From positions 1 through 46,214 of the forward strand of contig JAUWIN010000007.1 of assembly GCA_030605345.1 (NCBI GenBank): a stretch of 46,214 nt of DNA. The letters are read 5' to 3'. Origin of the DNA: Candidatus Brocadiia bacterium (GTDB taxonomy: Bacteria > Planctomycetota > PUPC01). The stretch's first letter is position 1. Each line of letters starts with the position of its first letter. This document shows positions 11,920 through 45,036 of this stretch, one piece after another. The position numbers were made by a program, and so were the translations under genes. The notes beneath the pieces were generated by a model, which searched no databases, was not told the origin of the DNA, and worked only from the letters and a program-made list of their open reading frames with translations.

Positions 11920-12570
11920 ATGCGGAAACTGACAGTTAAGCTTCTCAAGACGGGAGCTCAGATGTTCGGCAAGGCCGAGACGGCACATCACGAACACAGT
12001 CTTTACGGAGTGACCGACGGGAAGGCGGTGGGCACCTATTTTGAGCATAAGTTTCGGCGATACCTACACACGAAATACGAGTTTGTCGAGGGATCATCAG
12101 CCAAGGGCATTGATTTCCCAGAACTGGGAGTTGATATGAAGGTGACCAGCATCAAACAGCCGCAGTCTTCGTGTCCCTTCAAAACAGCCAGACAGAAAGT
12201 GTATGGGCTTGGATACTCCTTACTCGTGTTTGTCTATGAGAAGACCGACATCGCGCGCAAGAGAACCGGGAACCTGAAGGTTCTGCACACCATTTTCGTG
12301 GACACTATCCGTACCGGTGATTTCCAGACCACTTCTGGATTACGACGGATCATCGAGAATTCCGGGAACACGGACGACGTGATTGCCTTTCTGCACGAGA
12401 GGTCTCTTCCGGTGGATGACATTCAAGCCCAAAGCCTGGCTGAGGAAGTCGTCGCCACACCGCCGGAACTCGGCTATCTTACGATATCCAATGCCCTTCA
12501 ATGGCGGCTGCAATACAGCCGAGTTATCGAACAAGCCGGGAAAGTCGAAGGCGTGCAGCGGATTGTTTGA
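11920..12570 (+). CDS. type II restriction endonuclease (PD-(D/E)xK fold)
   Basis: A 216-aa protein. The motif GIDFPELGVDMKVTS gives Asp65 and Asp72-x-Lys74, a compact PD-(D/E)xK metal site. Glu42 in the preceding helix (GTYFEHKF) may be the extra acid often seen before this motif. The family is recognised by this pattern and by its position: the gene ends 5 bp before an N6-adenine methylase, so they form a restriction-modification pair. The endonuclease gene comes first, with no separate controller gene, so protection of the host DNA must be arranged some other way. The recognition site cannot be predicted. It begins 25 bp after the TIM-barrel gene. Confidence 0.75.
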   Translation: MRKLTVKLLKTGAQMFGKAETAHHEHSLYGVTDGKAVGTYFEHKFRRYLHTKYEFVEGSSAKGIDFPELGVDMKVTSIKQPQSSCPFKTARQKVYGLGYSLLVFVYEKTDIARKRTGNLKVLHTIFVDTIRTGDFQTTSGLRRIIENSGNTDDVIAFLHERSLPVDDIQAQSLAEEVVATPPELGYLTISNALQWRLQYSRVIEQAGKVEGVQRIV

Positions 12571-12575
12571 GACAA

Positions 12576-14156
12576 ATGCCGAAGACAGAACAACAAGCGA
12601 CGTTTGGTGACTTTCAAACTCCCCTCGCTCTTGCCCGCCGAGTCGCGACCCTCGTCGAGCGCGAGGAGTCTGATATCCGGACAGTAGTTGAGCCCACCTG
12701 CGGGGTGGGGAGTTTTCTTCAAGCGATAGCAGAGCTTCTCGGCGAGGAACCGGAATACTGGGGATTCGACGTCAACCCTGAATATGTCAAAGCATCCCGT
12801 GCAGTGCTGGACGGATTTCGTTCTATCGCCGGACATGTCGAGCAGAGGGATTTCTACGCCACCGACTGGAAAGAGTTCCTGTCGCAACAGGCGGTTCCCC
12901 TATTAGTTATTGGCAATCCGCCATGGATAACCAATGCCGCCATGGGTGCCATTGGCGGACGGAATCTGCCGGAGAAGTCGAATTTCCAGAGGCACGGCGG
13001 CTTTGCCGCGAAGACCGGCAAGGCGAACTTCGACATTTCAGAGTGGATGCTGATCAAGCTGCTCGAAGCGCTTCAGGGGACGCGAGCAACCGTTGCCATG
13101 CTTTGCAAGACTGCAGCAGCACGCAAAGTCCTTCGCCATGCTTGGCTCAATGGTCTGGACGCAGGACCATCCTCCTTGCACCTCATCGATGCAACCGCCG
13201 AGTTCGGCGTTTCAGTTGATGCCTGTCTCCTTTACACACACACCGGAATGGGCGGTGCCGAATCCACTGCAACGGTCTACCCGAATCTTTCCTTTGACGG
13301 ACCTTTGCAGACCTTCGGTCTGTTCGCGGGAGAACTGGTGTCAGACATAGACGCATACCGTGCTTTGCGAGGTCTCGATGGGCTCGAATATCGCAAGTGG
13401 CGGTCAGGAGTCAAACACGACGCCGCCAAGATCATGGAATTCACGAAGGATAACGGTGTGTTCATCAACGGCCTTGGGGAGAAATACGAACTGGAAGACG
13501 ACTGCGTATACCCTTTGCTAAAATCATCTGATCTGGCAAACGGCAGACTGCGCCCAAACCGGTACGTCCTTCTCACGCAGCGGAGGGTTACGGATAGCAC
13601 AGACGGGCTTCAGGAGACCGCGCCTAAGACATGGCGCTACCTACTCGACCACGCGGCTCAGCTTGACAGGAGAGGCAGTTCGATCTACGCGAAACGCGCA
13701 AGGTTTTCTGTCTTTGGCATTGGAGACTACACATTCACCCCTGCGAAGGTTGCCATTTCCGGGCTCTACAAGAGCCTGCAGTTCCAAGCGGTGGGCACCT
13801 CGGGCGGAAAACCAATCGTCGTGGACGACACATGTTACTTCATTCCATGTGAATCCAAAGCAGAGGCGGAGTTCTTCGCGGACCTCCTGAATTCCGAGAC
13901 CGCTCAGCGGTTCATTTCGGCTATCGTTTTCACTGACGCGAAAAGACCCGTTACGATTGACGTGTTGAGGCGTGTCGACCTAAAGAAACTTGCCGAGCAC
14001 CTTGGAAGAGAGGCGACGGCAACCGAATACCTTGCATCTCCGTCGCTTGAGTCAAGCCCTCAACGCCTTCTGGTATTTGAGGAAAAGGAAGAATATCGAA
14101 CAAAGAAATCCACCGCACCCCGTAAGGCGCGCGGACGCGGCCCACGGGTCCGGTGA
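12576..14156 (+). CDS. N6-adenine DNA methyltransferase (gamma class, type II)
   Basis: A 526-aa methylase that transfers a methyl group from S-adenosylmethionine to adenine N6. The motif order is X (GDFQTP, 11-16), I (EPTCGVGSF, 39-47), then IV (NPPW, 114-117), followed by a long C-terminal target-recognition region. This is the gamma class, as in TaqI or Eco57I methylases. The ATG at 12576 lies 5 bp after the endonuclease stop; an in-frame extension upstream would overlap that gene. The last 30 residues are basic (KARGRGPRVR). It protects the sites cut by the neighbouring endonuclease. Confidence 0.9.
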   Translation: MPKTEQQATFGDFQTPLALARRVATLVEREESDIRTVVEPTCGVGSFLQAIAELLGEEPEYWGFDVNPEYVKASRAVLDGFRSIAGHVEQRDFYATDWKEFLSQQAVPLLVIGNPPWITNAAMGAIGGRNLPEKSNFQRHGGFAAKTGKANFDISEWMLIKLLEALQGTRATVAMLCKTAAARKVLRHAWLNGLDAGPSSLHLIDATAEFGVSVDACLLYTHTGMGGAESTATVYPNLSFDGPLQTFGLFAGELVSDIDAYRALRGLDGLEYRKWRSGVKHDAAKIMEFTKDNGVFINGLGEKYELEDDCVYPLLKSSDLANGRLRPNRYVLLTQRRVTDSTDGLQETAPKTWRYLLDHAAQLDRRGSSIYAKRARFSVFGIGDYTFTPAKVAISGLYKSLQFQAVGTSGGKPIVVDDTCYFIPCESKAEAEFFADLLNSETAQRFISAIVFTDAKRPVTIDVLRRVDLKKLAEHLGREATATEYLASPSLESSPQRLLVFEEKEEYRTKKSTAPRKARGRGPRVR

Positions 14157-15433: not shown

Positions 15434-16660
15434 ATGGGATACAAACTGATGGGACGGATAATCGAATCGCTGCCGCTTCTGGCGATGGTGGGCCTGTTTG
15501 TGTTGGCGCCGCGTCAGGCGTCTGCGGAGGGACAGCCCCGCCCTAAGGCGGTGGCGGTAGCAGCCGCGCGGGCCGATGCGCTCCTGAACCTGACCAATAA
15601 GATTTACGACACTCAGTTAACCACGAACAAAACAGTGGCGGAGCTGGTGGCCGCAAACCAGCGGCTGCGCCACGCTGTGGAAACGGCGCTTAGAGGGGCC
15701 GGCCCGACCGCGAAACCGCAGTTCGACCCGTGCGGCGTGGTGCACGTCACAATCAGGCTCGAAACTTCGGACCTCCCCTCCCAGCTTCGCGCGAAAATAC
15801 ATAACCTGCCACGCACCATCTGTGCAGACGGGGTGGCTGGCGAGGTCGCCGCCCTTAAGGCACTCGGATTGCCGCCAGGGGATGTCACCGAACAGGTGAA
15901 AGCCTGGGTGGAGACGCACTTGAAGGCCGAGGGTGCGGCCAAGCTGGAGCATTCGTCAACACCGGAAAAGGCGAAGCAGAACGCCCGCCGCCAGGCGATG
16001 ACGAATGCATACACTGCCCTGGCGGAAAAAGTGCAGTCGCTTTCGCTCGACGACGGCGTCACAGTTGAAGCCTTCCTCTCACAACACAATGAGCTCCGCG
16101 CCAGGGTGAACGCGACGTTGACCAAGGCCAACCTCGTCAGAGAGAGCCTCGACCAAAACCGCACCACCTACAAGGTCGAAATCTCATTGCCCGCTAAAGC
16201 CCTGATGAAGCCCCTCAGCCTGGGACGATACCGGAACGGCGCCGGAGCCGTGCTAAGCCTGAAACAAATTGCAATCGCCCGCAACAACGCCAAGCGTGAC
16301 GCGCAGCGGAAACTCAAGAGCAGAATCTACGGCGTCCGGCTGCTGTCTGGCAGCACCGCAGGCGACCTAATCGAGAAAAGGGAAAAACTGAAGAGCGCCG
16401 TGAAAAAACTCTGCCGCCTGGCACGAATAGACCGAGTGGAGATTACGCAGGAGGGGCTGGTGAAGATGTATAGGAGCGTTTCAACCCGGGACCTTCCGGA
16501 CGAGGTCCGCCGGTTGCTGTCCTCGCGTGCGCCGTCACGTCTCAGCGTCATAGGCGGCGGGTTACCGGTAGAACCCAAAAACGCACACGCCGAGGCGAAG
16601 CCGGCGAAAAAGAACGAGGAGAAGAAAAAAGCCACCCCAAGTGAGGGTATTACCCCGTAG
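15434..16660 (+). CDS. secreted protein with three LPP20-like repeats
   Basis: A 408-aa exported protein. An N-terminal signal peptide (hydrophobic core SLPLLAMVGLFVLAP, cleavage likely after ASA at about residue 32) has no lipobox, so it is periplasmic or secreted. The mature part contains three copies of a pattern in which a helix of type A-K/R-x-x-A-R-x-x-A is followed by a beta-rich half. They run about 45-150, 185-290 and 300-390. This matches the LPP20/FlgT-N-like domain of genes downstream. The C terminus is a Lys-rich tail. The ATG at 15434 was chosen for the complete signal peptide; the Shine-Dalgarno is weak. It is the first of four such genes and its function is unknown. Confidence 0.7.
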   Translation: MGYKLMGRIIESLPLLAMVGLFVLAPRQASAEGQPRPKAVAVAAARADALLNLTNKIYDTQLTTNKTVAELVAANQRLRHAVETALRGAGPTAKPQFDPCGVVHVTIRLETSDLPSQLRAKIHNLPRTICADGVAGEVAALKALGLPPGDVTEQVKAWVETHLKAEGAAKLEHSSTPEKAKQNARRQAMTNAYTALAEKVQSLSLDDGVTVEAFLSQHNELRARVNATLTKANLVRESLDQNRTTYKVEISLPAKALMKPLSLGRYRNGAGAVLSLKQIAIARNNAKRDAQRKLKSRIYGVRLLSGSTAGDLIEKREKLKSAVKKLCRLARIDRVEITQEGLVKMYRSVSTRDLPDEVRRLLSSRAPSRLSVIGGGLPVEPKNAHAEAKPAKKNEEKKKATPSEGITP

Positions 16661-16712
16661 CCGCAGGAAGTTCCAGGACCAACTAAACTCTTACTACCGA
16701 GGGAGTGGACGA

Positions 16713-17513
16713 ATGACAAGGCTTCGACCGGCGGCGCTGGTGATCGCGCTTTCGCTGGCAGGTTGCGCCGGCAACGAAATTGTGACCGGCACAGGCGACG
16801 CGGCGCTCGATGCATACCTCCAAAAAGGAATGACCCGCGGCCAAGCCGTCAACATGGCCAAGCGCACCGCCACGGTGGTGGCACAAAGGGACCTCATCGA
16901 GCGGTACGCTGGGACCTTCCTCTCCACACAAACCCAGATAAAGAATTTCGTGGCGGAAACCGACAGGATCATCTCGACCTCCGGCGGCCTCATCAAGGGC
17001 GTGCGAGTTGTCCGCGTCGCACCCAGCCCAGACCAAACCATCTACCGAGCGGTCGTCGAGGCAAGGATGAAGGACCTCACAGAAACCCTCGGCAACAGGC
17101 CCGAGCCGGACGCCGCCCTCAGCCAAAACCTCGCGTGGCCGGATGAAATCGGCGGCGGGCCCGCTAAAACCCATAAGCCGCTGCGGCTTGACCCGAAAAT
17201 GAAAACCGTCAGCGCCACTGGGACAGGCCTGATCCCCGATGGGCTTGACCCCCGTGTGGCCAGGCTCCGCGCCAAACGCGCCGCCAAGATGGACGCGCTC
17301 CGAAACCTGGCCGAGAGAATCAGGGGAATCCGCCTGAGCTCCACCACAACCGTCGAGGACTATGTAGCCAAGAAGGACGTCATTCGGGCGAAAGTGGACG
17401 CCGTCATCAAGGGCGCCCGCGTGGTCAGCGAGGAAGAGAAGCCGGACGGCTCCTTCGAGGTGGAGGTGGCCGTTTCGGTTCCCGAAATCGGGGCCGCGCT
17501 GGGGCTCAAGTGA
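16713..17513 (+). CDS. lipoprotein with two LPP20-like domains
   Basis: A 266-aa lipoprotein. The signal ends in the lipobox LAGC (Cys about residue 18), so it is lipid-anchored. The first domain (about 20-130) has the helix AKRTATVVAQRDLIERYAG and the segment STQTQIKNFVAETDRIIS. The second (about 165-266) repeats the pattern with AKRAAKMDALRNLAERI. The first domain is clearly paralogous to the whole next gene, so the operon grew by duplication. GGGAG lies at 16701-16705 before the ATG. LPP20 was first described as a Helicobacter outer-membrane lipoprotein and its biochemical role is not established. Confidence 0.75.
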   Translation: MTRLRPAALVIALSLAGCAGNEIVTGTGDAALDAYLQKGMTRGQAVNMAKRTATVVAQRDLIERYAGTFLSTQTQIKNFVAETDRIISTSGGLIKGVRVVRVAPSPDQTIYRAVVEARMKDLTETLGNRPEPDAALSQNLAWPDEIGGGPAKTHKPLRLDPKMKTVSATGTGLIPDGLDPRVARLRAKRAAKMDALRNLAERIRGIRLSSTTTVEDYVAKKDVIRAKVDAVIKGARVVSEEEKPDGSFEVEVAVSVPEIGAALGLK

Positions 17514-17550
17514 ACGCTGCGCCTTCTTCTGACGTGAAAGGGATCGAGCA

Positions 17551-17943
17551 ATGAGAAAGGTTATCGCATTGACGGTGTTCCTGGCGCTGTCCGTCGCCGG
17601 CTGCGCCAGCCGGGAAGTCGTGACCGCTACGGGCACTGCCGTCTTGGACGCCTACAGAGACACAGGTCTGTCGTTTGCCCAGAAGGTGCTTATGGCCAAG
17701 CGGGCGGCCTTGGTGGACGCACAAAGGAACCTGCTCGAGGAGTATGCCGGAACTTTCCTATCTACACAAACCGAGATCAGGAACTTCGTCGCGCAGAACG
17801 ACCACATCATCAGCAAGAGCGCCGGCCTGATCAAGGGGGTTCACCGGGTATCCGAGCAGTTCACCCCCGACCAGACGGCGGTCACCGTCCGTGTCCAGGC
17901 GCTCAAATCAGACATCGAAGCGGCTTTGGAACAACAGTGGTGA
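17551..17943 (+). CDS. LPP20-family lipoprotein, single domain
   Basis: A 130-aa lipoprotein with lipobox VAGC (Cys about residue 18) and one LPP20 domain. AKRAALVDAQRNLLEEYAG is followed by STQTEIRNFVAQNDHIIS and the strand pair around AGLIKGV. It is about half identical by eye to the first domain of the preceding protein. It starts 37 bp after that gene and ends 4 bp before the next, so it is surely in the same transcript. It probably acts as a periplasmic subunit with its paralogs. Confidence 0.82.
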   Translation: MRKVIALTVFLALSVAGCASREVVTATGTAVLDAYRDTGLSFAQKVLMAKRAALVDAQRNLLEEYAGTFLSTQTEIRNFVAQNDHIISKSAGLIKGVHRVSEQFTPDQTAVTVRVQALKSDIEAALEQQW

Positions 17944-17947
17944 CCTC

Positions 17948-19141
17948 ATGCGGAAGCCGGTGATACTGGCCATTGTGGCCGCGGCGTTTGCAGCGGCCCC
18001 TGGGTGTGCTTCGGGTCCTCCGGCGCCACCACCGCCGTGGCTAACCCCCGACAGAATATCTCCGAAGCCTGTGGAAGCGGGGTCTGAACAGCTCCAAGCC
18101 GCCGATGCCGGTTCTGGGGAAACGCAAACCGTCGAGGCAGAGGGGGAGGGCGTCACTGCGGAAGCCGCGAAGAAGGACGCACTTCGCAACGCGGTTGAAC
18201 GCGGAGCGGGTATCGTCGTCCGAAACCAAAGCCTCGTGGTTGACTGGCACCTCGCCCGCGACATTGTGCTGACCGAGACGCGCGGCTCCATCGTGAAATT
18301 CGACCTCCTCAGCTTGCAAAGAACCCGCGGGGTGTTCAGGGCAAAGGTGCGTGCAACGGTCTGCACAAAAATGATTGCGAAAGACCTTTCCATACTGCAC
18401 TACCTGAGCAACCACGCCCGGATCGCATGCGTGGTTGCGGACTTCGCGGGCGGGGCAGCCGCTGAGACGGCCCTCGCACGCTCGGGCCTCCAAAACGCGC
18501 TACTCGACAAAAAATTTAATCTGGTTGACCGCTCGCAGGTCGAGGCAATCAACGCACGCGAGCGGCTCGACAGCTTCGACCACCCCGCCGTCGCCCGTGA
18601 ACTGGGCCGGCGGTGGGGCTGCGATATATTGATTACCGGCAAGGCCTGTGCCAACTTCGCCAAGGTCGAACAGGTGTATGGAGTGAAGCAGTTCTTCTAC
18701 ACCGCCAGCATCGAGGCGAGGGCGGTGCTCGTAAGCACGGGGAAGGTCATTGCGTCCGAGAACGTGACCGTCCGCCGCGGCGGGCGCAGCAGGGCCAGCG
18801 CACAGAAACTCGCCATCTCCGGCGCCGGCAGCCAAATCGCAAGCCCCCTTATAAAGAAGATTGTTCTTCACCTCCGTAAGTCGAGCCTCGACCAACAGTC
18901 AATCCAAATCCTAATCATGGATGTGACCTTCGAACGCCTGATGCGACTCGAAGGGCAGCTGAAAAAGGTCAACGGGATGGAGAGGGTCGTGCAGCGCTCA
19001 TATCAGCATGGCGCCGCAACACTGGACTGCACGTTCAAGGGAGACTCGCGCACCCTGGCGGTGGTCCTGGGGAAAATCGAGGAGCCGCGGCTGGAAATCC
19101 TCGGCGTGGAGCGCAACCGCATCGAAGTCAAAGTCAAGTGA
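17948..19141 (+). CDS. lipoprotein with FlgT/LPP20-like and CsgG-like domains
   Basis: A 397-aa protein with signal and lipobox APGC (Cys about residue 19), then a Pro-rich linker. Residues about 55-140 (EGEGVTAEAAKKDALRNAVE) resemble the FlgT-N/LPP20 fold. Residues about 155-300 (VVADFAGG, LVDRSQVEAINARE, GCDILITGKA, VRRGGRS) follow the pattern of CsgG-like/FlgT-M domains, which assemble into outer-membrane or periplasmic rings. A small C-terminal domain (about 305-397) ends in alternating strands. A ring- or pore-forming role at the outer membrane is inferred from the CsgG likeness, and its substrate may be one of the upstream proteins. No flagellar or curli genes are nearby. Confidence 0.65.
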   Translation: MRKPVILAIVAAAFAAAPGCASGPPAPPPPWLTPDRISPKPVEAGSEQLQAADAGSGETQTVEAEGEGVTAEAAKKDALRNAVERGAGIVVRNQSLVVDWHLARDIVLTETRGSIVKFDLLSLQRTRGVFRAKVRATVCTKMIAKDLSILHYLSNHARIACVVADFAGGAAAETALARSGLQNALLDKKFNLVDRSQVEAINARERLDSFDHPAVARELGRRWGCDILITGKACANFAKVEQVYGVKQFFYTASIEARAVLVSTGKVIASENVTVRRGGRSRASAQKLAISGAGSQIASPLIKKIVLHLRKSSLDQQSIQILIMDVTFERLMRLEGQLKKVNGMERVVQRSYQHGAATLDCTFKGDSRTLAVVLGKIEEPRLEILGVERNRIEVKVK

Positions 19142-19225: not shown

Positions 19226-20572
19226 CTACGCCGACCGACTGGCGACGCTGAGCCCCTCAATGACCGCGTGGGGCATTCGGCCAGCGTGGTCCAGGTCGGA
19301 ACTCAACTCAACGTTCTCCGCGAAGAGGTCATACAGGTTGCCAGCAATCATCGTGTCCTTGATACGGCCGGTGATTTCGCCGTTATGAATGCGGTAGCCC
19401 AAGCCCACGTTGCAGGAGAAGTCGCCGTTGATGATGTTGCCCTGCCCGTAGCCGATTAGGGCTTTGATGTAGATGCCATCATCGATGTCGGCGAGCAGCT
19501 CGCTGCTCGGACGAACGCCGGGGGTGACCAGCAGCCAATAGGGGTAGCAGCCGCTGTTGCCGGTTGGCTCGGCACCAGCGAGACCGGCGGTGTCGAGATC
19601 ATACAGGAAGCGACGCAGGACGCCGTTCTCGAACAGCGTCTGCTTCCGTGTTGGTATGCCGTCGGAGTCGATCTCACACGCGCCGCTGGCGTAATCGACG
19701 TGCGGGTGGTCCACAATTGTTATCGATTTTGCGAGAACTTGTTCTCCCAACCGACCAGCAAGAGGTGAATCACCCTTTGCGACGTTCCGCCCGTTGATGC
19801 CTGCCATGAAAGGCATGAGAAAGGCCGGCAGTTGCTCTGGCGGGATGTAGGCCTTCACCTTTCCTGTCGGCGGCTCGACGGTCTTTTCGGCGTTGCGCAG
19901 GTCAACGAGGACACGCCCGGCGATAACGGATGGGGCGTAGAACTCGTTCAGGTCACACCACCCCCGCCCGTATCCGGCAAACAGGATATCGGTGCCTTTA
20001 GTGCGCTGGACGTGCGAGGACAGCGACCAGGCGGTCCGGCTGGCCTGGTGGCAGACGCCACCGGTTGTGACCGTGATGTCCTCGGACTCGTTTCGGCTTC
20101 CTGTGGCGGAGATGAACAGGTCGGGGTCGTATTCCCTGAGTGCCTCTACCATCTGCCCGCAGCTTTCTATCATCCTCTCGCGCGCAAGGCCCAGCGTGCG
20201 TTCGGAATGGGTCTTGACCGGTGTGAGCGCGCCCGGCGGCGGGTAGGCATTGAAGTGGGCTGTGCTTCCTACCTTTGCGAGCACTATGGCGCGGTCTATC
20301 ATTTCGTCCAGCTTTTCTATTCGATTGCCGGAGGAAGTGCCACAGCGGCCGTCGACCAGCACTTCGACGTTGTAACTGAGCGATTCGCTGGAGCCGGTCT
20401 CCTTGAGGCGGCCGCGTTCGAAACTGCAGTGTGTGCTCTCGGAGTGCCCAAGGGAGAGTTTGGCCGCCGACGCCCCTGCGCTGTTCGCCCTTTCAACTCC
20501 TTGCCGGAGGCGCGATTCGCTATTTTCGATCATCGGTTTGCGCACGGTTCCCTCGTTTCTACCCGCCTCCAA
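19226..20572 (-). CDS. pmbA: TldD/PmbA-family protein, PmbA (TldE) subunit type
   Basis: A 448-aa member of the TldD/PmbA family that lacks the HExxxH zinc motif and is therefore the PmbA/TldE-type partner. In E. coli TldD and TldE form a heterodimeric metalloprotease that trims unfolded peptides, including the microcin B17 leader and CcdA. Typical blocks include RLKETGSSESLSYNVEVLVDG near the N terminus and the late GNIINGDFSCNVGLGYRI. The start at 20572 overlaps tldD by 14 bp; a Met 13 codons in (20533) is the alternative and would leave no overlap. It is co-transcribed downstream of tldD. Confidence 0.9.
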   Translation of the reverse strand: MEAGRNEGTVRKPMIENSESRLRQGVERANSAGASAAKLSLGHSESTHCSFERGRLKETGSSESLSYNVEVLVDGRCGTSSGNRIEKLDEMIDRAIVLAKVGSTAHFNAYPPPGALTPVKTHSERTLGLARERMIESCGQMVEALREYDPDLFISATGSRNESEDITVTTGGVCHQASRTAWSLSSHVQRTKGTDILFAGYGRGWCDLNEFYAPSVIAGRVLVDLRNAEKTVEPPTGKVKAYIPPEQLPAFLMPFMAGINGRNVAKGDSPLAGRLGEQVLAKSITIVDHPHVDYASGACEIDSDGIPTRKQTLFENGVLRRFLYDLDTAGLAGAEPTGNSGCYPYWLLVTPGVRPSSELLADIDDGIYIKALIGYGQGNIINGDFSCNVGLGYRIHNGEITGRIKDTMIAGNLYDLFAENVELSSDLDHAGRMPHAVIEGLSVASRSA

Positions 20573-21932
20573 TTACAACGTCGCGGATCCGTAAATGCGG
20601 CGACCCTACGCTCACAGGCAGGGGAGACTGTCCGCCCTTCCCGCACCCGCCCCCGCGCTTGGAAATGACCAGGTCGTTCCCAATCCCGTCGATTGACTTC
20701 AGAGTCTGGAACACGTTGCCCGTCAGCGTCACGTCGCGGAGCAGTTCTCCTCTTTGGCCGTTCTCGATGCGATACCCATAGCCGGCAGAAAAGGTGAACA
20801 TCTCCAGCGCCGTCTGGCCGCCGAATGCGTCGCACGCATAGACCCCGCGGTCCACGCCTGCAAACAACTCACCCACGGGGATGTCGCCGTTTGTGACGTA
20901 GGTGTTGGTCATGCGGCAGATGGGCGGCACGCTGCGGCCAATTGCCCGCGCATTCCCAGTTGGCTTCGCGCCCATCTTCGCCGCCGTCTCAAGCGAATGC
21001 AGGTGCCCCGCGAGGGCGCCTCCCCGAATGAGATAAGTCTCTCCGGTCGGCGTTCCTTCGTCGTCAAACGCACCAGTGCCGGTGTAATTCCCCAGCGAGC
21101 CGTCATCGATGACGTTCAGCCCGGCCACCCCGACCTCACGGCCCAGGCACATCAGTTCCCGCATTTGCGCGTTCTCGTACACCAGATCCGCTTCACTCAG
21201 ATGCCCGAACGCCTCGTGCACAAAAACCCCCGCGAGCTCGGGGTCCAGTATCACGGAATACGTTCCTCCCTCGCACTTCGGCGCCCTCAGCAGGGCGTCG
21301 GCGCGCTCGGCCGTTTCCCGCACTTTGTCCTCCATCCCCAGCACCGCGTCGTAAGTGGTAGTCGATGAGATGCCGTCGTACGCCCGCTGCACCAGTGCGC
21401 CATCACGTGCCACCGCCATGAACCTGCACGTTACCCTCGGGCGCTGTTCCATAAAGTAGTTGCCCCGGGTTGAAGCGAAGTACACTGTGCGGAAGCTGTC
21501 GCCGTATCCGACAGAAGAGGACTCAATAGAGGGTGCCGCGCCGAGAATGATGTCGTTATAGGCCTTCAGTAGCGCGAGTTTGTCGTCCAGGCTGACACCG
21601 CGGAAATCATGTTCCAAGGTCACCGGCTTCTCGGCGTCAACAGGCTCCACCTCGGCCAGTTCGGTTTTTTCTTCACCAACCAGTTTGGCGCAGGCGCAGG
21701 CTTCCTTGACCTGCTCACCGAGCTGGGCGAGTGAATCAAACGTCACCATGCCCCACCCGCCGCGGGTGCAGGCGCGAACAATCCCGCCACGGACCGACGA
21801 TGTCCCCGCGGTCTCGACCTCCCGCCCACGATATGCAATGACGGAGGAATCCTCAGTTTCCACGCGGATTTCCGCGTAATCGGCGGTGCTCTTTTGTAAT
21901 GCTTTTAACAAGCGGGCTTTCATGTGTGCCAC
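20559..21932 (-). CDS. tldD: metalloprotease TldD
   Basis: A 457-aa catalytic subunit of the TldD/TldE peptidase. The zinc motif HEAFGH lies at 239-244. The late cysteine in the GGGCGKGGQS segment (about 430) matches the third zinc ligand position of TldD. The conserved VYENAQMRELMCLGREV, DDGSLGNYTGTGAFDDEG and FSAGYGYRIENG blocks are present. The start may be 21932 or the second Met at 21923. It is the first gene of a two-gene operon from the promoter at 21995-22023. No obvious peptide substrate gene is adjacent. Confidence 0.96.
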   Translation of the reverse strand: MAHMKARLLKALQKSTADYAEIRVETEDSSVIAYRGREVETAGTSSVRGGIVRACTRGGWGMVTFDSLAQLGEQVKEACACAKLVGEEKTELAEVEPVDAEKPVTLEHDFRGVSLDDKLALLKAYNDIILGAAPSIESSSVGYGDSFRTVYFASTRGNYFMEQRPRVTCRFMAVARDGALVQRAYDGISSTTTYDAVLGMEDKVRETAERADALLRAPKCEGGTYSVILDPELAGVFVHEAFGHLSEADLVYENAQMRELMCLGREVGVAGLNVIDDGSLGNYTGTGAFDDEGTPTGETYLIRGGALAGHLHSLETAAKMGAKPTGNARAIGRSVPPICRMTNTYVTNGDIPVGELFAGVDRGVYACDAFGGQTALEMFTFSAGYGYRIENGQRGELLRDVTLTGNVFQTLKSIDGIGNDLVISKRGGGCGKGGQSPLPVSVGSPHLRIRDVVIGGG

Positions 21933-30869: not shown

Positions 30870-31019
30870 TGATTAATCCTGGCACAGGCAAGCAGCGCAG
30901 AGCACTGGTAGATGGGAGATCGGCTTTCGGAGTTGGCCCTCGTGGGCCTGGGCACGCCCCATGACGAACACGTCTTTCCTCCGGCCCCGCCGGACACTCC
31001 AGAAGCATCTAAGAAAATG

Positions 31020-31049
31020 GTTGACTATTTCGGTCAACACGCCTATGCT
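31020..31049 (+). promoter_or_regulatory. promoter with operator-like palindrome for the HTH-methylase
   Basis: TTGACT (31021-31026), a 17-nt spacer and TATGCT (31044-31049) form the promoter. GTTGAC-N7-GTCAAC (31020-31038) is a perfect 6-bp inverted repeat covering the -35. It is a good candidate operator for the HTH domain encoded just downstream, which would give negative autoregulation. Confidence 0.6.
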
Positions 31050-31101
31050 ACCTTGCATGAAGCGTACGAAGACCACGACCAGTACCGAGGAAAACTTCGG
31101 C

Positions 31102-32394
31102 ATGGTCCAGTTTGGGCAACACCTGAGGGCAGCCCGCCTCGCGTGCGGGTTGACCCAAGCCGATGTGGCGAAGAGACTTCGGGTTTCCAAGGGGTACATT
31201 TCCCGCCTTGAGGGTGGCAAGGCTCGGCCAGCCGAGTCGACGGTCCGGCGTCTTGCCGAACTCTGCGCGACGGATCCTAGCCCGCTCCTGATCCTGGCAA
31301 GTCACCTGCCGCGAGACGTTCGAGAAATCCTTTGGCAGCAGCCAACCGAAGCTCCAGCGGTCTTGCGTGAAACCTTTGGGCATAACGACTACGAGCAGAA
31401 TGAGCGCACTCACCTCGCAATTGCTGTCGCTGAGCCCCAGGCGATCTACCAGCCAAGCAAAGCCTCCTATGAGCTTTTCCAGGGGGATTGCTTCGAGTGG
31501 ATGGAGCACCGGCAACCCGACAGTATCCACGCCATCGTCACCGACCCGCCTTACGGCTTGAAGGAATACACCGCTAAAGAGAAAGCCAAGCTCCGGCGCG
31601 GACGCGGCGGTGTTTGGCGAATGCCCCCTGACATCGGCGGGTGCGTCCGCCGACCACTGCCAAGGTTCACTGTTCTCAACAACGACGAAAAGCAACAACT
31701 CACAAAATTCTTTCGGCAGTGGGGCGCGTGCGCTTTTCGGGTGCTGGTTCCCGGTGGGCACGTCTTCATGGCTACGAACCCACTTCTTTCGCAGCTGGTC
31801 TACATGGCCCTCATTGAAAGCGGTTTTGAGAAGCGTGGTGAGATCATCCGCCTGGTTCAAACTCTCCGGGGTGGAGACCGCCCCAAGAACGCGCACGACG
31901 AGTTCAAAGGCGTTACTGTCATGCCCCGATCTTGCTGGGAACCATGGGGGCTCTTCCGAAAACCCTGCGAGGGTCGCGTTCAGGACAACCTGCGCAAGTG
32001 GAAGACCGGCGGGCTCCGTCGGGTTAGCTCGGAACAACCCTTCTGCGATGTAATCCGAAGCTCTCCCACACGTTCTCTTGAACGCGACATCGCTCCGCAT
32101 CCCTCCCTCAAACCGCAGGGCTTTATGCGCCAGATTGTGCGCGCTGCCTTGCCTCTTGGAGAGGGCGTGGTGCTTGACCCCTTCATGGGTGGTGGTTCGA
32201 CTATCGCCGCAGCGTACGCCGTAGGCTACGTGAGCATTGGAATCGAAAGCGACCTAGAGTTCTTCAGCATCGCAAGAACGGCGATCCCGAAGCTGACAGC
32301 TCTGGTTCCAAATGGGGAATCCAAGGACCGTTCGTCCCGCCCTTTGCAGAACGCTACTAGAAGTGCCCAACCCAGCCTGTTTGGCCGGACGTAG
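31102..32394 (+). CDS. HTH-DNA methyltransferase fusion (type II, beta-class amino-methylase)
   Basis: A 430-aa fusion. Residues 4-55 are a Cro/C1-type helix-turn-helix (QHLRAARLACGLTQADVAKR, then SRLEGGKARP). Residues 123-400 are an amino-methyltransferase with motif IV TDPPYG (147-152) before motif I DPFMGGGST (359-367), the beta-class order. HPSLKPQ (333-339) is motif X. N6-adenine is favoured by DPPY, N4-cytosine is possible. ATG 31102 has GAGGAAA at 31087-31093; ATG 31057 would be nearly leaderless from the upstream promoter. The HTH probably represses its own promoter and takes the role of a separate C-protein. It is convergent with the endonuclease gene, with 23 bp between stops. Confidence 0.9.
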   Translation: MVQFGQHLRAARLACGLTQADVAKRLRVSKGYISRLEGGKARPAESTVRRLAELCATDPSPLLILASHLPRDVREILWQQPTEAPAVLRETFGHNDYEQNERTHLAIAVAEPQAIYQPSKASYELFQGDCFEWMEHRQPDSIHAIVTDPPYGLKEYTAKEKAKLRRGRGGVWRMPPDIGGCVRRPLPRFTVLNNDEKQQLTKFFRQWGACAFRVLVPGGHVFMATNPLLSQLVYMALIESGFEKRGEIIRLVQTLRGGDRPKNAHDEFKGVTVMPRSCWEPWGLFRKPCEGRVQDNLRKWKTGGLRRVSSEQPFCDVIRSSPTRSLERDIAPHPSLKPQGFMRQIVRAALPLGEGVVLDPFMGGGSTIAAAYAVGYVSIGIESDLEFFSIARTAIPKLTALVPNGESKDRSSRPLQNATRSAQPSLFGRT

Positions 32395-36023: not shown

Positions 36024-36590
36024 GTGAGGATTGGACGGCAAAAAGGACAGGCCATCGCCGAGTTTGCGATTGTCCTTCCTCTGCTGTTGATGCTCGGGCT
36101 GGGGATCGTACAGATTTCGCTGATGTTCGTCGCCAAGTCAGTGGTGGAGTATGCGGCTTTTGCTGCGGCACGCGCCGAGGTCGTCGGCGAGAGCCCGGAG
36201 CGTGCCGCTGAAATGGTTTGCAGCACCATAGCCGGACCATCATACACACAGGGGACAGGCGAACCAATCACAGTGCCCGGCTGGGGCGTCCTGCCCAGGT
36301 CTGAATCGTCCTCCGTCAAGACCAGTGTCGAGGTCCTGGATGCGTCCGGCGACGGCAATGGCGAGGTGACGGTGGAGGTGACGCATCTCTACGAACTGGT
36401 CGTCCCGGTGGTGAGCCTGATTTTCAGGCCGGTCTCGGAGCCGGCCCAGCCGGGCCAGGTGCCCGAGGGGCTTTTCGTCAGTGCCAACAACGCGCCCCAC
36501 ATGGTATTGAAGAGCCGATACACCCGACCGGTGCCCTGGGAAAAGGAAATAGAAGGGGTCCGGGGTCATCCGGTGATACCGGACCTGTGA
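36024..36590 (+). CDS. TadE-like pseudopilin
   Basis: A 188-aa protein with a short charged N terminus (RIGRQKGQAIAEFAIVLPLLLML), matching the TadE pattern G-Q-x-x-x-E-F-A with one membrane helix. The rest is periplasmic and beta-rich. The start is GTG at 36024. TadE-type proteins are cleaved pseudopilins needed for pilus assembly. It ends in a GTGA overlap with an alternative start of the next gene. Confidence 0.82.
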   Translation: MRIGRQKGQAIAEFAIVLPLLLMLGLGIVQISLMFVAKSVVEYAAFAAARAEVVGESPERAAEMVCSTIAGPSYTQGTGEPITVPGWGVLPRSESSSVKTSVEVLDASGDGNGEVTVEVTHLYELVVPVVSLIFRPVSEPAQPGQVPEGLFVSANNAPHMVLKSRYTRPVPWEKEIEGVRGHPVIPDL

Positions 36591-36643
36591 CGCGGGAAGC
36601 GCGGACCGGTGTCCGGATTTCGGGGCGACAGCGGAGCATCGCG

Positions 36644-38911
36644 ATGAGACTGACGCGTGATACAAATGGCCAGACGATGGTGTTCGGCGCCATCTCGCTG
36701 TTTATACTCGTGAGTTTTACCGCGATGGTGTTCAACGTCGGCCAGGTGGTTTCGCACCGCGTCGAGGTGCAGAACGCTGCCGACGCCGCCGCGCGCAGCG
36801 GCGCTCTCACCGAAGCCAACCTCGTCTCAACAGTCGCTTTTCTCAACGATGGCATGGCCTACATCTATTACAACATGATGCGCTACGCGACCAACGTCAC
36901 CGTGTTCGGCGTGCTCGCCGAGCTGAAGGAGACCGGCCCGCCGTATCCCAGCGACGGTCTTGTCGGGGTGTCAAATCCCGTGGCCCGATACAACTGGGCA
37001 TTCAGCCAGGCGGACACTTGGATACCGCGCTGCAAGACTTGGCTCAATGTGATCAGCCGGATCGAACGCGCCATCGCACTCAGCGGCGACTTGTTGGTCA
37101 AGCGCGAGATACGGCGCAGCGCTGTGGCGAATGCTGCCCACGACGTCGGTGGGGCAGAGAAGGGCATAGAGGCCGTCGCACTGTTCCCAGACTTCGACCT
37201 CCTTCCGCATGGCGGCGGATACCTGCGGCTCGACATCGACCAGATCGACCCGGACAATGGCTGGCACATTGTCTCAAACACAGGCTACATGATCGAAATC
37301 CGCCGCCTCGGTGACTACCACTGGCTGATAACAAGTACAGGCGGCGTGCAGATCGAAATCCGCCGGCTCGGACCGAACCACTACGTCCTCACCACGTCAA
37401 ACCAAGCGCTGGAAATCGAACGGCCCTCCAGTGACCACGTAATCATCAAGGTGACCGGGCCGAACCCGATGCACATCAATTGCCGGTATCTCGACGGGAT
37501 CGGCTGGGCGGTCAACGCCGTTTCGCCCGACGTGAAGGTCAACTACGTCCCGTTCCGTGACGGCGGATTCCGCATCACCTGTGTCCCCGGCGGCTCGATG
37601 GCCGTGCGCCGCGGGCCCGACGGCAGGCTCCAGCAGTGGAACGGATACAGCTGGGTCCCCATACCGGGCGACCGGGACGAGATTACCATCGGCGACAAGA
37701 CCATTCCCGTCCAACGCTCGAATACCGTCGCCCTCCCAGGCAACGCGTTGCTGGACCTGCCTAACACCGTCCGCCTCGGGCCAGTTACATACCACATACC
37801 GGACAGAGTTGAGATCGGGAACACAGGTATCCAGCTCCGCCGCGACAGCGTCCGCATCACCGCCAGGGTATGGCTCGCAACATTTGTTATCGACGACATG
37901 GGCGAACTGCCATATCTGGAGGTTAACGGCCTGACCACTAGGGACGCCGACGACTGCTGGCGAGTCATCAGCGAACGCGGCACCCGCCACCGCCTCCAGT
38001 GGCCGGACCCGAGGGATAACTTCTGGATCTACGAATATGCCTCCAACGCCTCATACCTGTTTGGCGACGGCATGCGCCGCCTGGCACATCACGCTATCCA
38101 GGACAACGACCCCTACGTTCAGACGCATGCCGGCTTGGAGCCAGCATGGACAGAATGGTTCAACCCGGTGACCGGGAATCTTGTCACGCCTGACGCATAC
38201 CACCAGTCCCGTCGTTCCTGGGACCCGGACCTCACAAACTACGTCGACGCCAACGGCAATGAGTACGTGCGGAAGTTCGCCACCGACATGTTCCACCGCA
38301 ACAACAGGAAATACGTAAGTGTCGATCTCAACGCTGTGCCGAGACCGCTGCGTCTGACCGACGACTTCCTCAAGTTCGGCATCAATGTCGCCGTCTGGCG
38401 CGACAAAGATACAGCTATGCTCGAAGGCGGCCGGAAAGGTGTGCTGCGGTTCAACCTGTTCGAGAACCCGCCCTGGGGCTACTTTGCCGTGGCGAGCGCC
38501 CGGTGCGCGTTCCTGGACAATACGGCTTATACGCCGCAGTGGCGCACCACGTTCGACACCAGCGCCGAAATCAGTTCCTGGGTCGAGCACAGTTACCAGA
38601 ACCTCTACGAGCCAGTGTGGACGGCGATGCTGGTCTCCACCGCCGACGCGGTCAGAAGCGAACACATCGACGCCATCGCGCCGGACACCGGCGCGAACTT
38701 CCTGTGGCGCGGCCTCGCCGGAGGACACCACACTTGGGTATGGCACAGCCGCGGCGGAGCGCGCTGGCATGACCCCGATCCGCCGGAAGAATTCATACAG
38801 TTCAGGAGACCGCGTGACGACGTCGCCGCGAAGTTCAGGAACATGCGAAACCGGCAGGGAGCGCGGTTCGATTATACCTCGCCCGACCTGCCAGAGGCCA
38901 TAGACCACTAA
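36644..38911 (+). CDS. large TadG-like protein with internal beta repeats
   Basis: A 755-aa protein. The N terminus (DTNGQTMVFGAISLFILVSF) has the Tad/TadG helix, followed by HRVEVQNAADAAARSGAL, the hallmark of TadG-like proteins. No von Willebrand A domain is seen. Residues about 194-293 contain tandem repeats of about 20 aa (IEIRRLG, then IEIRRLG, then LEIERPS), and a further beta-rich region follows to about 430. The ATG at 36644 with GGAG at 36632-36635 is preferred; GTG 36587 overlaps the previous stop. It is probably a surface or pilus-associated structural protein. The long C-terminal part matches no family I know. Confidence 0.75.
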   Translation: MRLTRDTNGQTMVFGAISLFILVSFTAMVFNVGQVVSHRVEVQNAADAAARSGALTEANLVSTVAFLNDGMAYIYYNMMRYATNVTVFGVLAELKETGPPYPSDGLVGVSNPVARYNWAFSQADTWIPRCKTWLNVISRIERAIALSGDLLVKREIRRSAVANAAHDVGGAEKGIEAVALFPDFDLLPHGGGYLRLDIDQIDPDNGWHIVSNTGYMIEIRRLGDYHWLITSTGGVQIEIRRLGPNHYVLTTSNQALEIERPSSDHVIIKVTGPNPMHINCRYLDGIGWAVNAVSPDVKVNYVPFRDGGFRITCVPGGSMAVRRGPDGRLQQWNGYSWVPIPGDRDEITIGDKTIPVQRSNTVALPGNALLDLPNTVRLGPVTYHIPDRVEIGNTGIQLRRDSVRITARVWLATFVIDDMGELPYLEVNGLTTRDADDCWRVISERGTRHRLQWPDPRDNFWIYEYASNASYLFGDGMRRLAHHAIQDNDPYVQTHAGLEPAWTEWFNPVTGNLVTPDAYHQSRRSWDPDLTNYVDANGNEYVRKFATDMFHRNNRKYVSVDLNAVPRPLRLTDDFLKFGINVAVWRDKDTAMLEGGRKGVLRFNLFENPPWGYFAVASARCAFLDNTAYTPQWRTTFDTSAEISSWVEHSYQNLYEPVWTAMLVSTADAVRSEHIDAIAPDTGANFLWRGLAGGHHTWVWHSRGGARWHDPDPPEEFIQFRRPRDDVAAKFRNMRNRQGARFDYTSPDLPEAIDH

Positions 38912-38922
38912 AGGGGCCGATT

Positions 38923-39714
38923 ATGTGTCCTCATCGAAGCTCTCACCTCGACCTGGCGGTTGCGAGCCAGACGCACCATGTCCGGGCCAGTGCGGCGGTC
39001 GAACTCATCATCATGCTGCCAGTGTTTCTGCTCATATTGTTCGCCATGCTGTATGTGGGAGAACTCTCCCTGTATAAGGGGCGCACACACTTCGGCGGGC
39101 AATACGCAATGGACGCCGCCGGCGACCAGAGCGAGCAGGGCCCGGTCAGAGGAACCGTTACTGACAAGCTCTATCCCAGCCCGGTTGGCGAACTTACCGT
39201 CGCCGAATCACCGCCGGAACCAGCCGACATCCCAGAGGATGGCGAACTGAGCACGGTCTTCGACGAAATGTGCGAGGTGGTCTATTCGACTGTTGCGACC
39301 GGGCGATACGTCCTCTCCGGTGGCCGCCTCCGGTTCGTCGTCAGCACCTACCAGAGCCAGAGACTCTCGAGGGATGGTCAATACGTCGTCGCTCACGGGC
39401 TCCGCGATTACCCCGTGCCGGAATTGTGCACCGACCTGCTTCAGGGCTGGGAGAAGCGCAACCGAGTTGATCTGACCTATTCTTACCATCCGGATTACAT
39501 TGACATCGGTCGGTGGGCGCTGGAGCCGGTGGAGCTCTCCACACGGTTCCAGGCGGCCATCCGCGCCGACAAAAAGCGCGAGGTGACCGACCCGCCGCGC
39601 GGGGCGAACCACCAAATCGACACCGTCACCGCCGACCCCCGGATGACCAATTGCGGCCAACTGCCGCACTACCCCAGCTTCTTCGGCGACGCGAGGTTCT
39701 GGAAACCTGACTGA
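38923..39714 (+). CDS. TadE-like protein with longer periplasmic domain
   Basis: A 263-aa protein. The hydrophobic segment AAVELIIMLPVFLLILFAML with Glu after the cleavage-like position is TadE/pilin-like, preceded by a longer than usual leader (about 25 residues). The rest is extracytoplasmic with several cysteines. It follows the TadG-like gene by 11 bp. Confidence 0.7.
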   Translation: MCPHRSSHLDLAVASQTHHVRASAAVELIIMLPVFLLILFAMLYVGELSLYKGRTHFGGQYAMDAAGDQSEQGPVRGTVTDKLYPSPVGELTVAESPPEPADIPEDGELSTVFDEMCEVVYSTVATGRYVLSGGRLRFVVSTYQSQRLSRDGQYVVAHGLRDYPVPELCTDLLQGWEKRNRVDLTYSYHPDYIDIGRWALEPVELSTRFQAAIRADKKREVTDPPRGANHQIDTVTADPRMTNCGQLPHYPSFFGDARFWKPD

Positions 39715-39732
39715 GGGCAGAGAGGCAACGCG

Positions 39733-40566
39733 ATGAATAAACGCGGCTCCGGCGTCTTCTGGCGAGTGCTTCTAATCCTTGCTGTTTCGGCCGTCATTGT
39801 CGGGCTGGCGGCATATCAGGGCAGGGCAATTGTGGGGAACTCTCGTCCGCAGTATCACGTCCGTTCCGGCCCGGCGGTCTTGGAGCCTGTGGAAGGCTCG
39901 GAGTTTGTCCGCTCCTACCCCGTGGTATTCAACGGTTTGGAAACAACGTTCGGACACTACACCTCACGGCTCAGCCCGGATGAAGTTGTTCGCAAGTACC
40001 GGCAGAAATTATCTGAGCGTAACGAAGTAAGCCGTCGGCGCGCGGACGTGCCGGGGCTTTGTTCGGACGCGGCCGGTTGTTCCGTTCTTTCTTATGCAAC
40101 CGAAGACGGGAGCATCATGGGCATCGTCGCATTCGCCGGGCGCGAATCCGGCGGTTCAGAATACTTCGTCGGGCGGATGCCAGCAGCGCGTTCGCCGCAG
40201 GAACCGGACGGCGACTGTCCCGGGCGCCAGCCGACGGGCGTGCCCAAGCCCAGGCATTCCACCCGCACCATGTGCATCGAGAACCTCGGTGGCCTACCCT
40301 CGGTGATGGCCTTCTACGAGGGGTGGGGCCGCCCGAGCGGAATCGTCGAAGACCTGCGCCACGATATGGCCGAAAACCGCTGGAAGGAGCGCCGCGAGTC
40401 GAGCAAGACCCTCACGGCGAATTACGAAGGTAACTCCTTGCTTTCGTTTTGCCGCCGCCGCGAGCAGTGCATCGTCGGGGTTGACCAGGAGCGCAAAACA
40501 GGTAAGATAGTGATTATGATATTTTGGGCAGAGCGGCCTTGGCTCCCCGAGGAGACGGCGCTTTAG
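39733..40566 (+). CDS. unknown membrane-anchored protein of the Tad cluster
   Basis: A 277-aa protein with one N-terminal membrane anchor (FWRVLLILAVSAVIVGLAAY) and a periplasmic part with several cysteines (GLCSDAAGCSV, CRRREQC) that could form disulfides. I recognise no family. It starts 18 bp after the TadE-like gene and lies before CpaB. It is inferred to be an accessory pilus factor. Confidence 0.6.
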   Translation: MNKRGSGVFWRVLLILAVSAVIVGLAAYQGRAIVGNSRPQYHVRSGPAVLEPVEGSEFVRSYPVVFNGLETTFGHYTSRLSPDEVVRKYRQKLSERNEVSRRRADVPGLCSDAAGCSVLSYATEDGSIMGIVAFAGRESGGSEYFVGRMPAARSPQEPDGDCPGRQPTGVPKPRHSTRTMCIENLGGLPSVMAFYEGWGRPSGIVEDLRHDMAENRWKERRESSKTLTANYEGNSLLSFCRRREQCIVGVDQERKTGKIVIMIFWAERPWLPEETAL

Positions 40567-40605
40567 CGCCGGCCGCCGACCCTGGCCACGTTCAGGAGGA
40601 ATATC

Positions 40606-41406
40606 GTGAAATCAAAAGTAGCCTTGGCGGTCGCAATTGCTCTTGCTGTTCTCGCCGCCGTTGGCATCCGCGCCTTTCTGACCCGGGCGAAGCATGAGTT
40701 TCGCGGGGAGCAGAAGATGGTGCCGGTGCTTATCGCCGCGAAAAACATCACGAAGGGCAACCCGGTGTACAGTGACATGGTGACTAAGGACAATTTCGAC
40801 CAGCGCGTGGTCCAGGACGGACGCACTGTATTCCCCTCCCAGCTCGGCAAAATCGTGGGGAAGACAATCCTCAAAGATGTCCGCGCAGGCGAGCCAATCT
40901 TGTGGTCGTACTTTTCCACCAGGGCAGAGAAGAAAGACCCGGCACGCGGCCTTCCCCTGGGCTATCGCCAGATCACCATCCCGGTGGACAAGGTGACCGG
41001 CTGCGCCGGGCGGCTGTTGCCGGGGACGGTCGTGGACGTGCTGGCGACACTCCGCGTCCCCCGTGACGCCAGAGGGGCCGTCGAACCGGTGACCCAGATC
41101 GTGCTCACCAATATGCGCGTCGAAGCGCCGGACCTCCGCTCCCGCGAGGGGTACACCTTCCTCTCCGCAAGGGAACAGCGAGACTACGCCGCATACTCCA
41201 CCGTTACGCTCCGCGCACTCCCGCTCCAAGCCACGCTGCTCGCGTTCCTTGCCGACCAAGCAAAGATACACCTGGTCATACGCAGCCCTGATGACCCCAC
41301 GGGACAAGACCCCACGAAACTGGAAAAAGTCACGCTCGACCAGCTCGACGCCCTGATTGAGAAGGCGTCAAAAGCGAAACCGCTGGCCGCCGAGTCAGCA
41401 CCATAG
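40606..41406 (+). CDS. cpaB: Flp pilus assembly protein CpaB/RcpC
   Basis: A 266-aa CpaB protein. The N-terminal membrane helix is followed by a SAF domain (VPVLIAAKNITKGNPVYSDMV, LGKIVGKTILKDVRAGEPIL) and the RcpC-type second part (LPGTVVDVLATLRVP). It acts in the periplasm with the secretin. The start is GTG at 40606 with AGGAGG upstream. The secretin partner is not found in the window. Confidence 0.93.
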   Translation: MKSKVALAVAIALAVLAAVGIRAFLTRAKHEFRGEQKMVPVLIAAKNITKGNPVYSDMVTKDNFDQRVVQDGRTVFPSQLGKIVGKTILKDVRAGEPILWSYFSTRAEKKDPARGLPLGYRQITIPVDKVTGCAGRLLPGTVVDVLATLRVPRDARGAVEPVTQIVLTNMRVEAPDLRSREGYTFLSAREQRDYAAYSTVTLRALPLQATLLAFLADQAKIHLVIRSPDDPTGQDPTKLEKVTLDQLDALIEKASKAKPLAAESAP

Positions 41407-41432
41407 CCCGCAGCCGGTCAGGAGGCAAAGAC

Positions 41433-43115
41433 TTGGCCCATCTGCTCATAACTGACCGCCGGGACGGAAGCCAGCGCCAAGTGGTCGTTGACCGGGCCCG
41501 CTTTGTCATCGGAAAAAAGCCCTCCTGCCAGCTCACGCTGGACAGAACTAACATCTCGCGGGAACACTGCGAAATTGTCTCCACCGACGGCGGGTACCGC
41601 ATTCGGGACCTGAACAGCCGGAACGGCACCTTCATCAACAACAAGAAAATCGACGGCGAAGCCCCCATCGCCGACGGAGCTGTCATCCAGCTTGGCGACT
41701 TCACCCTCCTGTTCGGCATAGAGCCGGAGAGCCCGGAGGCCGGCGGCGGAGCCCAGCCGCAGGAGCCCGCTGTCCGCTCTCAGGAAGCGAAGCCGCCCGC
41801 GCCCGCTGCAGCCAAGCCTAAGGTGCCCGGAAGGCAAGAACAGCGCTGCACCCCGCCTGAGCTCAAGCGCAAGATCCACGACATGCTTATTTCAGACCTC
41901 GACCTTCGGCACGTCGACCTGAGCAAGGTTCCGTCTCGAGAAGTCCGCCGCCGCACCGAGAAAGTCATCGAAAACATCATCAACAAAGTCGCCGACGAGA
42001 TGCCGGTGTGGCTTTCCAACAAGGCCCTGGTCAAGGAGGTCGCAGACGAGGCTCTGGGGCTGGGGCCAATTGAAGCGCTCCTGGCGGACGAGGAAGTGGA
42101 CGAGATCATGGTCAACGGATGGAGTCGGGTGTATGTGGAGAAACACGGCAAGATCGAGCTGACCGACAAACGCTTCACCGACGACCGCCAGGTTATGGAG
42201 GTGATCCGTCGGATTCTGGCGCCCATCGGCCGACGGGTGGACGAGAGCAGCCCGATGGTGGATGCTCGCCTTTCCGACGGCTCGCGGGTCAACGCCATCA
42301 TTCCCCCGCTCTCGTTGAGTGGGCCGGTGGTGACCATTAGAAAGTTCGCCTCGAACCCCTTTACCATACGCGACCTCATCAACTTCGGCACGCTCACGCC
42401 GCAGGTGGCCGCGTATCTCAAACTGTGCGTGGAGAGCCGCCGGAACGTCGTCATATCTGGCGGCACCGGCTCCGGTAAAACCACCCTTCTCAACGTGCTC
42501 TCGGGATACGTCCCGCACGACGAGCGCATCGTCACCATAGAGGACACCGCGGAGCTCAAACTGCCGCAGGAACACGTCGTCTCACTCGAATCAAAGCCCC
42601 CCAACATCGAAAACAAAGGGGCCATTCCGATTCGTCAACTTGTAATCAACAGCCTCCGCATGCGACCCGACCGGATCGTCGTAGGCGAGTGCCGTGGCGC
42701 CGAGGCCCTGGACATGCTGCAAGCGATGAACACCGGTCACGACGGCTCCCTCACCACCATCCACGCCAACTCGCCCCGCGACTGCCTCTCGCGCCTGGAA
42801 ACGCTTGTCCTCATGGCGGGGATGGAGCTGCCGTCCCACGCCATACGCGGCCAGATCGCCTCAGCCATCAACATGATGGTCCAGATAGCAAGGCAAAGCG
42901 ACGGGAAGCGGAGGGTAACCTCGGTCACCGAAATCGCCGGAATGGAGCAGGATGTGATCACACTCCAGGAGGTATTCAAGTTCGAGCAGACCGGGGTGGG
43001 CCGACGAGGGGAAGTTATCGGCACCCACAAATCCACCGGCTCCATACCAACCTTCGTCCACGACTTCCGCAAGCGCGGCCACGAGATCGACATGAACATG
43101 TTCGCCCAGGCCTGA
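41433..43115 (+). CDS. cpaF: FHA-domain fused Tad pilus ATPase CpaF/TadA
   Basis: A 560-aa fusion. Residues 8-95 are a forkhead-associated domain ([30 protein letters not shown]), a phosphothreonine-binding fold. Residues 145-540 are the CpaF/TadA secretion ATPase with Walker A GGTGSGKT (343-350), [11 protein letters not shown], Walker [10 protein letters not shown] (414-422) and the TTIHANSP box. The linker is Pro/Ala-rich. The start is TTG with AGGAGG at 41420-41425. Tad ATPases normally lack the FHA part, so pilus assembly may be tied to Ser/Thr kinase signalling, though no kinase is encoded in the window. Confidence 0.95.
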
Positions 43116-43137
43116 CGAGAAGAGCGAGGAACTGCGG

Positions 43138-44001: not shown

Positions 44002-44015
44002 TAGTAGGGTTGGCC

Positions 44016-44957: not shown

Positions 44958-45007
44958 CCGGCCAGCAGTTCGGCGGCGCTGCGGAGACGTTGCTGCCGAC
45001 TATCGAC

Positions 45008-45036
45008 TTGTCTGGGCACAGATAGCGTGATAAAAT
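45008..45036 (+). promoter_or_regulatory. sigma70-type promoter before the FHA membrane protein
   Basis: TTGTCT (45008-45013), a 17-nt spacer and TAAAAT (45031-45036) in the 182-bp gap after tadC. The next gene may thus be expressed independently of the Tad operon. Confidence 0.55.

Follow-up and report, generated by a model that had tools for sequence, protein, structure and literature searches.

Outer-membrane disks and H-rings are regarded as flagellar add-ons of uncertain origin. In Campylobacter FlgP forms the basal disk, and in Vibrio it makes up the H-ring together with FlgO and FlgT (PMC12222027, PMC6375700); a FlgO/FlgP/FlgT gene set, e.g. SO_3257/3256/3258, belongs to the Na+-driven polar flagella (PMC6375700). 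FlgQ of Campylobacter looks like a repeat of two FlgP units, LPP20/SHS2 folds occur in non-ring proteins too, e.g. dodecin and Lpp20, and the criterion given for ring formation is that an insert separates the SHS2 helix from the second strand (PMC12222027). We report on four adjacent genes (genes 1 to 4) in a 46,214-nucleotide stretch of DNA, here referred to as the window, from the planctomycete Candidatus Brocadiia bacterium (GenBank assembly GCA_030605345.1, contig JAUWIN010000007.1, positions 1 to 46,214). Their products are exported proteins with LPP20 domains, the last being a FlgT-like lipoprotein, and they are encoded in a genome in which we found no flagellar markers. We suggest, with a probability of about 0.58, that the four genes encode a flagellum-independent ring or collar, associated with the outer membrane and made of FlgP- and FlgT-like parts. 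A preliminary description of this DNA had proposed an envelope complex or an export pore; the first part gained support, i.e. a non-flagellar complex of the ring type, because FlgP and FlgT are the nearest structures, the gene order is conserved and the flagellar markers are absent, while the second part was not supported, as discussed below.

The LPP20 domains were identified with a hidden Markov model (HMM) built solely from proteins of other genomes, and 2000 shuffled sequences served as control. The model returned three, two, one and one copies for genes 1 to 4, respectively, the same counts as in the preliminary description, at 26-88 bits per copy and with independent E-values of ~3e-10 or better for each; the weakest copy (gene 4) scored 26.4 bits vs. 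7.8 bits for the top shuffle. With Pfam alone LPP20 was above the cut-off in gene 1 (3.9e-7) and gene 2 (5.2e-11), and genes 3 and 4 stayed below threshold with both Pfam and NCBIfam, with marginal Pfam matches to FlgT_N in gene 3 (0.0033) and to CsgG in gene 4 (0.064). Genes 2 and 3, previously suggested to be duplicates, share 53% identity across 126 residues (E ~1e-40). Export signals of all four products and the lipoboxes of genes 2, 3 and 4 were read by eye from the sequence, in keeping with the earlier count of three lipoproteins.

FlgP chains were the only significant PDB sequence matches of genes 1-3, and when the profile of the multi-LPP20 relatives was used FlgP was the sole family below E 0.01 (best 2.2e-16). 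Gene 2 copy 2 aligned to Vibrio FlgP across the ring-forming insert region with a single gap; this region is a hairpin, at low predicted local distance difference test (pLDDT) values, in the model of gene 4 and helical in the poor model of gene 1. The gene 2 alignment and the low-confidence gene 4 hairpin are consistent with the ring-insert criterion. These matches bear on the idea that the four products constitute a general outer-membrane scaffold or a set of stress lipoproteins similar to Helicobacter Lpp20, i.e. small and partly redundant copies that form no ring. Such a scaffold would agree with the non-ring members of the fold and with the fact that copy number and layout differ among genomes, a protein of 1471 residues in another genome of the phylum holding as many as six copies (L186 3386-7801). 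However, the PDB sequence searches matched the ring-forming FlgP chains and not Lpp20 itself (5ok8), and in many genera the LPP20 proteins keep their association with FlgT-like and CsgG-like partners; we therefore consider a ring-less scaffold unlikely.

Structure models were made for gene 1 and gene 4. For gene 4, modelled from an alignment of nine sequences, the top fold matches were FlgT of the Vibrio LPHT ring (8z5n_0, 9e-10; we assign this chain to FlgT on the basis of length and of agreement with 3w1e) and the FlgT crystal structure 3w1e (9e-9), with GNA1162, CsgG, PelC and TolB ranking after FlgT. Both FlgT alignments span the chain, and the FlgT_M-like middle domain is recognised by fold only, the Pfam FlgT_M family giving no match in gene 4 or its 37 homologues. 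Among these homologues Pfam detected FlgT_N in 18 (best 3.6e-9) and CsgG in three (best 8e-4); gene 4 itself falls under the FlgT_N threshold, yet it is matched by the LPP20 profile. A PDB sequence search with gene 4 alone gave chance-level matches only. Taken together, fold and relatives support the CsgG/FlgT-M-like domain that had been assigned to this protein. We attribute the HMA matches of the homologues' C-terminal domain to a common ferredoxin-like fold and not to metal binding.

The CsgG-like central domain and the lipobox of gene 4, and the CsgG chains that match its model at 3e-6, would also be expected if gene 4 were a CsgG-type outer-membrane channel for which the LPP20 proteins act as periplasmic gate or cargo chaperones. 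We consider such an export pore highly improbable, since FlgT is the better match to gene 4 and no extra transmembrane hairpins are evident in its central domain (~158 residues), either in the model or from the length of the domain. Moreover, the pore-less GNA1162 and PelC chains lie above CsgG in target-normalised template modelling score (TM-score; 0.54/0.57 vs. ~0.40), and neither a curli substrate nor CsgE/F genes were found among the scanned neighbours. In agreement with what had been noted previously, no curli or flagellar genes were present among the scanned neighbours in the window, including csgA/B/E/F.

Comparison with other genomes shows that the gene order is conserved beyond a single genome. 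The gene 3 protein used alone as query gave no relatives in the searched genome contigs; with the multi-LPP20 alignment 79 loci were fetched. In Planctomycetota the order is a CsgG-like lipoprotein, usually with C-terminal tetratricopeptide repeats (TPRs), a multi-LPP20 protein, mostly with three copies (67 of the 85 long proteins), and a FlgT-like protein. Neighbours were counted in the L036-L102 loci with enough flank: a CsgG-like lipoprotein gene lies upstream of the multi-LPP20 gene in 38/58 loci and a FlgT-like gene downstream of it in 30/60. No further gene family is widely common to the fetched loci; one group of ten loci has an unrelated upstream gene in common. The split layout of the window recurs in two Syntrophales genomes (L097 153-3310 and L099 6453-9502), where an LPP20 protein, a two-domain LPP20 protein, a one-domain lipoprotein and a FlgT-like protein follow one another, and in one planctomycete (L187) a CsgG-TPR gene, a triple-LPP20 gene and two genes for single-LPP20 lipoproteins stand in a row. 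Another genus of the host's family (G001) has adjacent orthologues of gene 1 (32% identity, 385 residues) and gene 2 (34%, 151 residues). As separate observations, a second and diverged LPP20 protein is encoded between the multi-LPP20 and FlgT-like genes in L061, L068, L075, L077, L085, L086 and L088, and Sericytochromatia (L103-L108) have LPP20 proteins with a best-segment identity of up to 55% and no FlgT-like neighbour, one of these loci (L105) having a weak CsgG-TPR-like neighbour upstream of the LPP20 gene.

The nearest known proteins being FlgP and FlgT, and FlhA being present in 246 of 392 sampled Planctomycetota genomes (~63%), the four genes might represent a disk or H-ring set that was left after loss of the flagellum, or that serves a flagellum absent from the draft. 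FlgI, FlhA and flagellin were, however, not found in the host genome, which is 92% complete, and FlhA was not found in the two other sampled genomes of the family. The reading frames are intact, the orthologue of gene 1 is kept in another genus that lacks FlhA, and no recurring flagellar gene family lies beside the cassette in the 79 loci. Genomes with the cassette are not enriched in FlhA: it is present in 8/20 genomes with the multi-LPP20 family (Fisher p = 0.055) and in 4/13 with a full-length gene 4 homologue (Fisher p = 0.02), both in the direction of depletion. Since relatedness is not corrected for in these tests and the limit for "full-length" was set once the list had been seen, we claim no more than that carriers of the cassette show no positive association with flagella; depletion itself is not claimed. 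On these grounds we regard a flagellar relic or accessory as quite improbable.

Several points weigh against a flagellum-independent ring. The host genome is a draft (2.28 Mb, 141 contigs) and its completeness makes the absence of flagellar genes strong, not absolute. The gene 1 model is poor, with a predicted TM-score (pTM) of 0.35 and no fold match at E < 0.001, and its LPP20 copies seemingly lack the first strand; the LPP20 identity of the gene 1 repeats accordingly rests on sequence profiles, and the expectation that all four proteins share one fold stands by profile and not by structure. For gene 4 the model is of moderate quality (pLDDT 73.6, pTM 0.46) and yields a low TM-score against FlgT (0.24-0.36), so that the domains match better than the domain arrangement; furthermore, FlgT_C was unmatched in the 37 homologues and the C-terminal domain is ferredoxin-like in the model. 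All three cassette families occur in a row in only 11 loci, and gene 4 was unmatched in the family's other sampled genus, where it may be dispensable or have been missed.

From the domains, homologies and export signals we infer the outer-membrane location, the oligomerisation into a ring, the partner and the function outlined here. The products of genes 1-4 would be exported, those of genes 2, 3 and 4 would carry lipid anchors that probably insert into the outer membrane's inner leaflet, and FlgP-like LPP20 domains placed side by side would form a periplasmic ring or disk beneath that membrane. The triple-domain product of gene 1 could cover several ring positions and the lipoproteins could tether the ring to the membrane, with the N-terminal domain of gene 4 joining the LPP20 ring and its CsgG/TolB-N-like domain making a second collar. 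The FlgO role may be taken by an unlinked CsgG-like lipoprotein of the host genome (C94:4240-5292; full-length profile match 9.4e-26, CsgG 1.2e-5); a second unlinked CsgG-like (FlgO-like) candidate is present on contig C71. The ring might brace a non-flagellar machine that spans the envelope, or the outer membrane itself.

A Tad/Flp pilus cluster (36587-46213) with a TadG-like protein, RcpC/CpaB, an FHA-TadA ATPase, two T2SSF proteins and an FHA protein at the contig end lies ~17 kb downstream of the operon, and the host genome has four secretins; a secretin-based machine is therefore a candidate partner. A wider and rather doubtful proposal is that the genes belong to an outer-membrane ring machine that is dedicated to a non-flagellar role, is widespread among planctomycetes and extends to Syntrophales and other phyla. 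On this view the flagellar H-ring and basal disk may have arisen by recruitment from that machine, which in the host could provide a collar for the Tad pilus or for some other secretin-based machine encoded in the genome. A cassette of the same three kinds of proteins in flagellum-less genomes makes it testable whether such rings began, or double, as general envelope scaffolds, and suggests a function to seek for a family annotated merely as LPP20 lipoproteins.

The coordinates of the genes and their domains are given in Table 1. The gaps between genes 1/2, 2/3 and 3/4 are 52, 37 and 4 bases, respectively; a promoter scan gave no match and a terminator scan gave matches on the minus strand only (nine vs. 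5.1 expected). A TldD/TldE-type metallopeptidase pair follows directly after the operon on the opposite strand (19226-21932). Elsewhere in the window there are overlapping genes for a type II restriction enzyme and a methyltransferase (11920-14153; PADLOC 3e-101 and 2e-141) and a helix-turn-helix domain fused to an N4/N6 DNA methylase (30961-32391).

Table 1. Positions in the window of genes 1 to 4 and of the domains predicted in their products
Feature	Position	Strand	Description
Gene 1	15434..16660	+	408 aa, exported; three LPP20 (FlgP-like) domains; signal peptide, no lipobox
LPP20 copy 1 of gene 1	15548..15787	+	HMM 46.8 bits
LPP20 copy 2 of gene 1	15974..16210	+	HMM 47.7 bits; Campylobacter FlgP chain 9hmf_C at 2.8e-4
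LPP20 copy 3 of gene 1	16277..16507	+	HMM 32.7 bits
Gene 2	16713..17513	+	266 aa lipoprotein; two LPP20 domains; lipobox LAGC
LPP20 copy 1 of gene 2	16854..17090	+	HMM; 53% identical to gene 3
LPP20 copy 2 of gene 2	17259..17489	+	HMM 88.5 bits; one-gap alignment to Vibrio FlgP
Gene 3	17551..17943	+	130 aa lipoprotein; one LPP20 domain; lipobox VAGC
Gene 4	17948..19141	+	397 aa FlgT-like lipoprotein; lipobox APGC
N-terminal LPP20/FlgT_N domain of gene 4	18155..18355	+	HMM 26.4 bits; FlgT_N in 18/37 homologues
Central CsgG/TolB-N/FlgT-M-like domain of gene 4	18416..18889	+	Structure model and fold search
C-terminal beta-alpha-beta-beta-alpha-beta domain of gene 4	18893..19135	+	Structure model; weak HMA-like matches in relatives

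The domain families are already known. No paper combining LPP20 with CsgG was found in the searchable literature, outside which many subscription papers lie, and, judged by title and abstract, no listed hit on LPP20 in Planctomycetes or on FlgP in non-flagellated bacteria deals with such a cassette; the non-flagellar cassette provisionally appears to be undescribed.

Compared with known systems, the LPP20 proteins of the window are closest to FlgP (LPP20 family, PF02169), with which they share homology including the ring-insert region and, for genes 2 and 3, the lipoprotein character. They differ in that the domains are repeated (three and two per protein) and spread over three genes, in a genome with no detected flagellum; given the FlgQ precedent, repetition alone is not new. 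Gene 4 resembles FlgT of the Vibrio H-ring in that a TolB-N/CsgG-like domain comes after an N-terminal FlgT_N/LPP20 domain, but it carries a C-terminal ferredoxin-like domain in place of FlgT_C and is a lipoprotein. With the CsgG curli channel it shares the fold of the central domain, whereas no transmembrane hairpins are evident, no curli partners were found among the scanned neighbours and the match is weaker than that to FlgT. Finally, the planctomycete cassette recalls the FlgO/FlgP/FlgT set in that a CsgG-like lipoprotein, an LPP20 protein and a FlgT-like protein are encoded side by side, but the CsgG-like member of the relatives carries TPRs and matches CsgG rather than FlgO, in the host genome it is unlinked, and no flagellar markers were found there.

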